Part shown: one piece after another, positions 43,297-56,451 of the stretch
Layout: the number at the start of each line of letters is the position of its first letter
How positions within the stretch are numbered: the first letter of the stretch is position 1
Assembly: GCA_013202295.1 (NCBI GenBank)
Contig: JABMRT010000074.1
Span: forward strand, 1 to 56,451
Direction: 5' to 3'
From: Candidatus Zhuqueibacterota bacterium
Lineage (GTDB): Bacteria; Zhuqueibacterota; QNDG01; JABMRT01
Length of the DNA stretch: 56,451 nucleotides
Notes under the pieces: model-generated
Database searches by the model: none
Seen by the model: the letters and a program-made list of their open reading frames with translations, nothing else
Told to the model about the DNA's origin: nothing
Made by a program: the position numbers and the translations under genes

Positions 43297-43548
43297 GTGT
43301 CCTTCGTTTACATTCTTAAATGCCGTGGCGGTACGTATTATACAGGGTATGCAAAGGATCTGGACGCGCGTATTCAGCAGCATCAAGCCGGTAAAGGCGC
43401 GAAATATACACGCGGCAGACTGCCGGTGGAACTGATGTTTTCTGAAGCGTGTTCCTCAATCGGCGACGCACTAAGACGTGAAAGAGAAATTAAAAAATTG
43501 TCCCGAAAAGAGAAAGAGGAATTGATCGATATCAGCAATGCAGTTTAA
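43297..43548 (+). CDS. GIY-YIG domain protein (UPF0213/YhbQ-like)
   Basis: An 83-aa protein beginning at GTG 5 bases after the GH115 stop. FVYILKCRGGTYYTGYAKDLDARIQQHQAGKGAKYTRGR is the compact GIY-YIG nuclease core (here VYIL and YTG), followed by the family's RREREIKKLSRKEKEELI helix. Proteins of this family are small DNA- or RNA-associated nucleases of uncertain role. Its location in a carbohydrate operon is probably accidental cotranscription. The GTG start lacks a strong RBS. Confidence 0.85.
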   Translation: MSFVYILKCRGGTYYTGYAKDLDARIQQHQAGKGAKYTRGRLPVELMFSEACSSIGDALRREREIKKLSRKEKEELIDISNAV

Positions 43549-43569
43549 CGTTCCACAAAGAGGGATTAG

Positions 43570-56225: not shown

Positions 56226-56254
56226 TTGACAAGCCTCTCTTTTTATTGTATATT
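56226..56254 (+). promoter_or_regulatory. Strong sigma70-type promoter for the tRNA-like array
   Basis: A perfect -35 TTGACA (56226-56231), a 17-bp spacer and -10 TATATT (56249-56254). Transcription would begin near 56261, 16 bases before the first tRNA-like unit. Confidence 0.8.
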
Positions 56255-56276
56255 AAGCTCTGATTTTTAAATATAT

Positions 56277-56412
56277 GCGCCCATAGCTCAATTGGCAGAG
56301 CAATCCGCCTTAGGCGGATAGATTAAAGGATATTCAATAAGAAAGCGCCCATAGCTCAATTGGCAGAGCAATCCGCCTTAGGCGGATAGATTAAAGGATA
56401 TTCAAAAAGAAA
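56277..56412 (+). repeat. Two 68-bp tandem tRNA-like half units
   Basis: Units at 56277-56344 and 56345-56412 differ by one base (T/A at 56338/56406). Each starts like the tRNA that follows: a 7-base acceptor-like GCGCCCA, TA, and a D-arm GCTC-AATTGGCA-GAGC. Instead of an anticodon arm they carry a perfect hairpin ATCCGCC-TTA-GGCGGAT, then AT-rich sequence with no T-arm or 3' acceptor strand. As a 7-base loop it would read CCTTAGG with C at position 33, so these are not normal tRNA genes. Contig-end assembly artefact is possible. Confidence 0.75.
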
Positions 56413-56451
56413 GCGCCCATAGCTCAATTGGCAGAGCAATTGACTCTTAAT
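56413..56451 (+). tRNA. tRNA-Lys (CTT), 5' half, cut by window end
   Basis: Acceptor GCGCCCA, TA, D-arm GCTC-AATTGGCA-GAGC, A, then anticodon stem ATTGA and loop CTCTTAA with U33 and anticodon CTT, giving Lys. The sequence ends just after the loop, so the T-arm and 3' end are not seen. Confidence 0.75.

Follow-up and report, generated by a model that had tools for sequence, protein, structure and literature searches.

Half-tRNA units with a palindrome in the anticodon-arm slot, and a small GIY-YIG nuclease gene beside them in related bacteria

Integrative elements use tRNA genes as attachment sites, the tandem repeats at tyrT of E. coli carry the 3′ end of the tRNA (rtT), and the Rickettsia palindromic elements and REP sequences are short palindromes found inside genes, RNA genes included. 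The Ssn family (COG2827) comprises site-specific single-strand nucleases of the GIY-YIG type, linked to the NTS repeats of Neisseria. SegB of the T4/T6 phages is a free-standing homing endonuclease, also GIY-YIG, which lies beside tRNA genes (PMC13096335; PMC2988022). SegB drives tandem amplification, and there is microhomology between the 5′ end of the tRNA and the 3′ end of segB (PMC13096335).

The window analyzed here (56,451 nucleotides) is the entire contig C50 of assembly G000 (303 contigs, 5.15 Mb), and it ends in two half-tRNA units standing before a tRNA-Lys(CTT) gene. This arrangement recurs in no fewer than 12 of the 82 related bacterial genomes, and a small GIY-YIG nuclease gene often accompanies it. 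As with Ssn, a small single-domain protein, of UPF0213 type as judged from solved structures, is linked to a hairpin-forming repeat; unlike Ssn, the repeat lies in tRNA genes with tRNA flanks, occurs mostly in few copies rather than hundreds, and belongs to a candidate element. Integrative elements resemble it in splitting a tRNA gene and restoring an intact copy, but at the present loci no integrase was seen, the break falls at the anticodon arm and is capped by palindromes, and the complete tRNA stays flanked by a 5′ half on its upstream side and a 3′ half on its downstream side. The tyrT repeats likewise include part of a tRNA gene in tandem, although there it is the 3′ end only, downstream, with neither a palindrome swap nor a nuclease gene. 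In contrast to the Rickettsia elements and REP sequences, the palindrome takes the place of precisely the anticodon arm and occurs largely within tRNA units. SegB and these loci have in common a GIY-YIG nuclease next to tRNA genes, a tRNA-plus-nuclease segment that is amplified in tandem, with truncated nuclease copies in the repeats, and microhomology between the tRNA 5′ part and the nuclease 3′ end. The present cases differ in residing on bacterial chromosomes, in the small size of the protein (~86 aa, UPF0213-like), and in possessing, on both sides of the intact tRNA, half-tRNAs in which a palindrome stands for the anticodon arm; no palindrome of this kind appears in the passages on SegB consulted here (PMC13096335; PMC2988022).

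Half-tRNA units at the contig end

The two 68-nt units lie in tandem on the + strand at 56277–56344 and 56345–56412. As the first-pass annotation had noted, they differ by a single base (67/68 identical), the mismatch being T/A at unit position 62. Each opens with positions 1–26 of tRNA-Lys(CTT) unchanged, that is, the acceptor 5′ strand, the D-arm, and base 26 (56277–56302 and 56345–56370; identical to 56413–56438). That annotation was right that the tRNA is copied but overstated the length at ~33 bases: the exact shared prefix is 28 nt, comprising these elements and two chance bases. There follows ATCCGCC-TTA-GGCGGAT (ATCCGCCTTAGGCGGAT; 56303–56319 and 56371–56387, +), a 7-bp hairpin with a TTA loop, delineated by genome copy search, folding, and covariation. 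Its 17 nt are the exact length of the anticodon arm, and the palindrome thus replaces the arm in register, which bears out the replacement proposed earlier. The remainder of unit 1 (56320–56344, +) consists of a variable-loop-like AGATTAAAGG, where relatives carry AGGTTCAAG.., and then of unrelated spacer; that of unit 2 (56388–56412, +) is one base unlike it. Each unit lacks both T-arm and 3′ acceptor strand, again as first described, and the predicted RNA fold of a unit consists of the D-arm and the hairpin only. With these parts missing and C at position 33, the units do not qualify as functional tRNA genes.

A sigma-70-type promoter, TTGACA-17-TATATT, is located at 56226–56254 (+). It agrees with the consensus at 11 of 12 positions, so that a good promoter is present, while the earlier "perfect" was slightly too strong; no other + strand promoter match occurs between it and the tRNA-Lys, before which it is the only strong one. 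The tRNA-Lys(CTT) itself, which has intact orthologues in relatives, is represented by its first 39 nt only (56413–56451, +), the contig stopping there. The tRNA and covariance-model scans proposed at first pass (ARAGORN, Rfam) called no tRNA in the window because of this truncation. Three further contigs of the same assembly, C44, C190, and C120 (L037, L041, L046), end inside tRNA genes, namely, His, Thr-CGT, and probably Pro; such ends are more frequent than chance would give, which looks as though repeats of a similar tRNA-linked kind interrupt the assembly at these genes too.

The position of the units, at the very end of a contig that stops inside a tRNA, would be in keeping with an assembly artefact. 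The same architecture is, however, found well inside contigs in independent assemblies (G008, G013, G014, G037, and G058), which argues against an effect of contig ends and makes an artefact very improbable.

The units between promoter and tRNA, here and in G008, might also be a regulatory leader, in which the folded transcript (D-arm plus hairpin) controls how the tRNA behind it is processed or how much of it is made, or yields tRNA-like small RNAs or decoys. The hairpin does covary, as described below, and the earlier leader-hairpin reading stands insofar as transcribed leader units fit. Against a regulatory function, no conserved structure common to the units was found downstream of the palindrome, fold energies are just modestly better than those of shuffles (z −1.4 to −2.2), the same module also occurs 3′ of the tRNA and within the end of a protein gene, and most relatives keep the tRNA without units; we regard it as improbable. 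For the decoy role suggested at first pass there is no evidence: the units have no T-arm, no 3′ acceptor strand, and no anticodon, and each genome has a different 3′ remainder.

Recurrence and variation of the palindrome

Exact probes of 31 bp and 25 bp from the unit gave no match in genome or viral contigs, in searches of collections some of which may omit records very close to G000. A match search in the order found the structure in G001 and G008, and a structural pattern, in which an anticodon arm without T33 comes after a D-arm, added G036, G037, G048, G057, G058, G059, and G061 at Lys genes and the Thr(CGT) locus of G059. No fewer than 11 further genomes of the KSB1-like phylum have upstream 5′-half units, which stand at tRNA-Lys(CTT/TTT), Thr, or Val genes; the search of relatives proposed in the first-pass annotation thus shows the structure recurring in many genomes and at several tRNAs. 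Such units precede Lys-CTT in G001, G014 (decayed), G036, G037, G048, G058, G059, and G061, Lys-TTT in G008, G057, and G058, and Thr-CGT in G059. In G001, which belongs to another family, they lie between tRNA-Lys(TTT) and tRNA-Lys(CTT), and its Val(GAC) locus has a related truncated copy with the palindrome further downstream. The G008 units, before tRNA-Lys(TTT), carry a different palindrome, ATCCCGATGTATCGGGAT; their leftmost 5′ half begins ~15 nt past the −10 element, as against ~13 nt for the tRNA of a unit-less relative, and can therefore be taken for the original gene's left half.

Mirror-image 3′ units are present downstream of Lys-CTT in G014, G036, G037, and G059, downstream of Arg-TCT in G013 and G014, and at Asp in G041 (a five-contig assembly), with TCCCGATGCTCGGGA in the anticodon-arm slot. 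In G014, G036, G037, G059, and G013 their order is D-arm 3′ strand, same palindrome, variable loop, T-arm, 3′ acceptor, and terminator. With 5′ halves upstream and palindrome-bearing 3′ halves downstream, the palindrome accordingly marks, on both sides, the break point of split tRNA genes. Where relatives are assembled further, the intact tRNA and the nuclease gene are mostly flanked by direct-orientation copies of the D-arm/palindrome/variable-loop module, which form a 37–39 bp direct repeat in G014 and G036. Repeat segments measure 68, 78–96, 113–116, or 348–443 bp, and the spacers after the palindrome differ between genomes. The locus is also polymorphic for presence: eight relatives possess a plain tRNA-Lys(CTT) with neither units nor nuclease.

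The 5.15-Mb G000 genome holds only two exact copies of the palindrome, both in the units; shuffles of the window give 0.08 expected matches at up to three mismatches. In 20 distinct modules, drawn from nine genomes, every sequence keeps its seven arm pairs (100% paired), and the loops vary freely. Two pairs change on both sides, giving nine double-changed cells, a value reached in 0/500 shuffles; these cells are confined to G037 and G059, and hence represent few independent events. The arms differ between genomes yet keep pairing, and within a genome they may be common to different tRNAs: ATCCGAC arms to the Lys and Thr loci of G059, and ATCCGCC arms to the Lys and Arg loci of G014. Since different tRNAs carry the same arms in one genome, these sequences suggest a trans-acting factor that reads the arms.

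One could also see in the palindrome a short mobile repeat, REP-like or of another sort, that lands in tRNA genes by chance and is moved by a different enzyme (e.g., a Y1-type transposase). The few extra intergenic copies in G001, G014, and G058, within longer dispersed repeats, speak for this and show that the palindrome is not wholly tRNA-bound. Yet tRNA units account for essentially all copies in G000, G036, G048, G059, and G061, nearly all units have the palindrome at the same tRNA position, and the many genome-wide intergenic copies typical of REP sequences were not found (two exact copies in G000, few elsewhere). Chance landing of such a repeat consequently has little to recommend it, and general dispersal of the palindrome in G000 was rejected, its only exact copies being the two units. 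As a separate observation, the intergenic dispersed repeats of G001 (L066, L067, L068) and G058 (L157–L160) have a palindrome of the ATCCGCC..GGCGGAT type with longer conserved flanks.

Structures of this kind probably extend beyond KSB1, since three IMG/VR loci show them. At L189 1–340 (contig IMGVR_UViG_2713897301_000001), a GIY-YIG gene with GGTAGAGC at its end is fused to a TCCGCC-GCA-GGCGGA hairpin and to the 3′ half of a tRNA; the hairpin loop is misread by ARAGORN as the anticodon of a tRNA-Cys. Before an intact tRNA-Asn(GTT), L215 (14847–14997) has one 5′ unit and L235 (860–1187) has three, with TCCCGGCGCGCCGGGA or TCCCGATCCATCGGGA as the anticodon-arm sequence; the lineage is apparently unrelated. 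Apart from L215 and L235, the viral-contig scan with TCCCGA-type palindromes returned mostly unrelated coding repeats. A plasmid origin was not supported. A literature search found no paper on half-tRNA palindrome arrays.

A linked GIY-YIG nuclease gene

At all six Lys(CTT) unit loci that are assembled downstream, the intact tRNA is followed by a gene for a GIY-YIG protein of ~86 aa (UPF0213-type), which is absent at all eight unit-less Lys(CTT) loci (Fisher p = 3e-4); the remaining unit loci (G000, G048, and G061) end inside or just past the tRNA. A profile of this subfamily (E < 1e-39) finds it in exactly 6 of 82 genomes, each time directly downstream of a unit-bearing Lys-CTT, and the next match follows after a wide gap, at 1e-22. 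The nucleases of G014 and G058 were left out of the profile and are still among the six. These proteins of the relatives match PF01541 (E ≤ 1.5e-13; the subfamily is absent from the window), their GIY-YIG catalytic-motif residues are invariant, and the closest solved chains, 1ywl and 1zg2, are the UPF0213 proteins EF2693 and BH0048. The profile search detected no subfamily member in the G000 assembly, and in G008, G013, and G057 no nuclease of the subfamily accompanies the tRNA that bears the units. Phage records yielded one weak relative of the nuclease only.

The gene and the tRNA-derived module are intertwined. In four of the six loci (G014, G036, G037, and G059) the 3′ end of the nuclease gene runs into the D-arm and palindrome; the G036 protein thus ends in ..QKLAEQSA*, encoded by AAATTGGCAGAGCAATCCGCCTGA. 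That of G058 ends in D-arm sequence without the palindrome, and neither was seen at the 3′ end in G001. The tRNA 5′ part AATTGGCAGAGCA recurs within the nuclease gene 3′ ends of G036 and G058, with a shorter match in G014, G037, and G059. A 3′ tRNA half or D-arm copy follows the nuclease in 5/6 loci, mostly with the same palindrome. Nuclease copies also occur in tandem; G036 has two full copies and a partial one, and in G014 and G037 the repeats are truncated.

More distantly related GIY-YIG genes occur close to iMet, Asp, Ser, and Arg tRNAs, several of them followed by a duplicated tRNA 3′ end. At G011:C49 (L124) and G008:C28 (L131) the order is initiator tRNA-Met, GIY-YIG gene, and duplicated 3′ part; here a TCCGGCAGC-type palindrome stands after the anticodon, and the whole arm is not replaced. 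G000 itself has a distant GIY-YIG gene directly after its tmRNA (G000:C48 147–865; L071, L103), with a CTTCG-type palindromic sequence between them. The window contains an ordinary small GIY-YIG (UPF0213-like) gene at 43301–43549, which is not near a tRNA and around which no palindromes were seen.

"Duplication products" was one of the readings offered at first pass, and it fits. In its simplest form, ordinary tandem duplication of the tRNA by replication slippage, the extra copies would have lost their 3′ halves, the palindrome would have arisen or been kept because it prevents a tRNA that works but is the wrong one, and the neighboring nuclease would be coincidence. The units are indeed near-identical to the local tRNA, the spacers differ between genomes as they would after recent local duplications, and G008, G013, and G057 lack a linked subfamily nuclease. 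Decay, however, would not be expected to leave a perfect palindrome at one and the same position of several tRNAs in many genomes, its arms particular to the genome yet common to different loci. There is also the 6/6 versus 0/8 link to one nuclease subfamily, and slippage by itself is unlikely.

A candidate parasite of tRNA genes

The best reading, which we consider somewhat probable, is that the two units are what is left of the left side of a small element, parasitic on tRNA genes and centered on a free-standing GIY-YIG nuclease. The nuclease would act on the palindrome and/or on the natural anticodon hairpin of a tRNA gene. After a cut in the anticodon arm, repair would use a segment carrying a complete tRNA and the nuclease gene, so that the resident tRNA is split, its palindrome-capped halves coming to lie outside and the intact tRNA, by which the host would survive, inside. 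The product would have the order half, palindrome, intact tRNA, nuclease, palindrome, half. Segments may afterwards be multiplied into tandem 68-bp units, by unequal recombination or by cuts at the repeats, and repeats between palindromes would expand or shrink by recombination over the range of 68 to 443 bp. The units would then ride as an extra leader on the tRNA transcript, and a role of the RNA is not required. Experiments on phage SegB provide a precedent for a nuclease that drives the tandem amplification of a tRNA segment, with microhomology between tRNA and nuclease gene (PMC13096335).

We infer cutting, insertion, and specificity from sequence, with which insertion and in-place duplication are both compatible. 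Counted against the GIY-YIG element are the absence of the nuclease from G000, the unlinked units of G008, G013, and G057, and the intergenic palindromes of G001, G014, and G058. As the G000 assembly is without a subfamily member, the linked nuclease of this genome is a prediction: just past the contig end there should be a GIY-YIG gene and a 3′-half unit (GGCAGAGCA-palindrome-3′ half).

More tentatively, these loci could represent a new class of minimal mobile element, a possibility to which we give rather less than even weight. It would be a cassette of ~0.4 kb, composed of a complete replacement tRNA and a GIY-YIG nuclease of ~86 aa, and bounded by direct tRNA-derived hairpin modules; it would insert into the anticodon arm of essential tRNA genes and leave palindrome-capped halves on both sides, the palindrome specificity co-evolving with the nuclease across bacteria. 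If true, essential tRNA genes would be a niche for a tiny parasite that is obliged to rebuild the gene it breaks. Breaks of assemblies in tRNA genes, and spurious calls like the "tRNA-Cys" of L189, would also become easier to explain. The UPF0213 family is widespread and poorly understood, and the genome-specific palindromes would predict, in a testable manner, the targets of each of its small GIY-YIG proteins.
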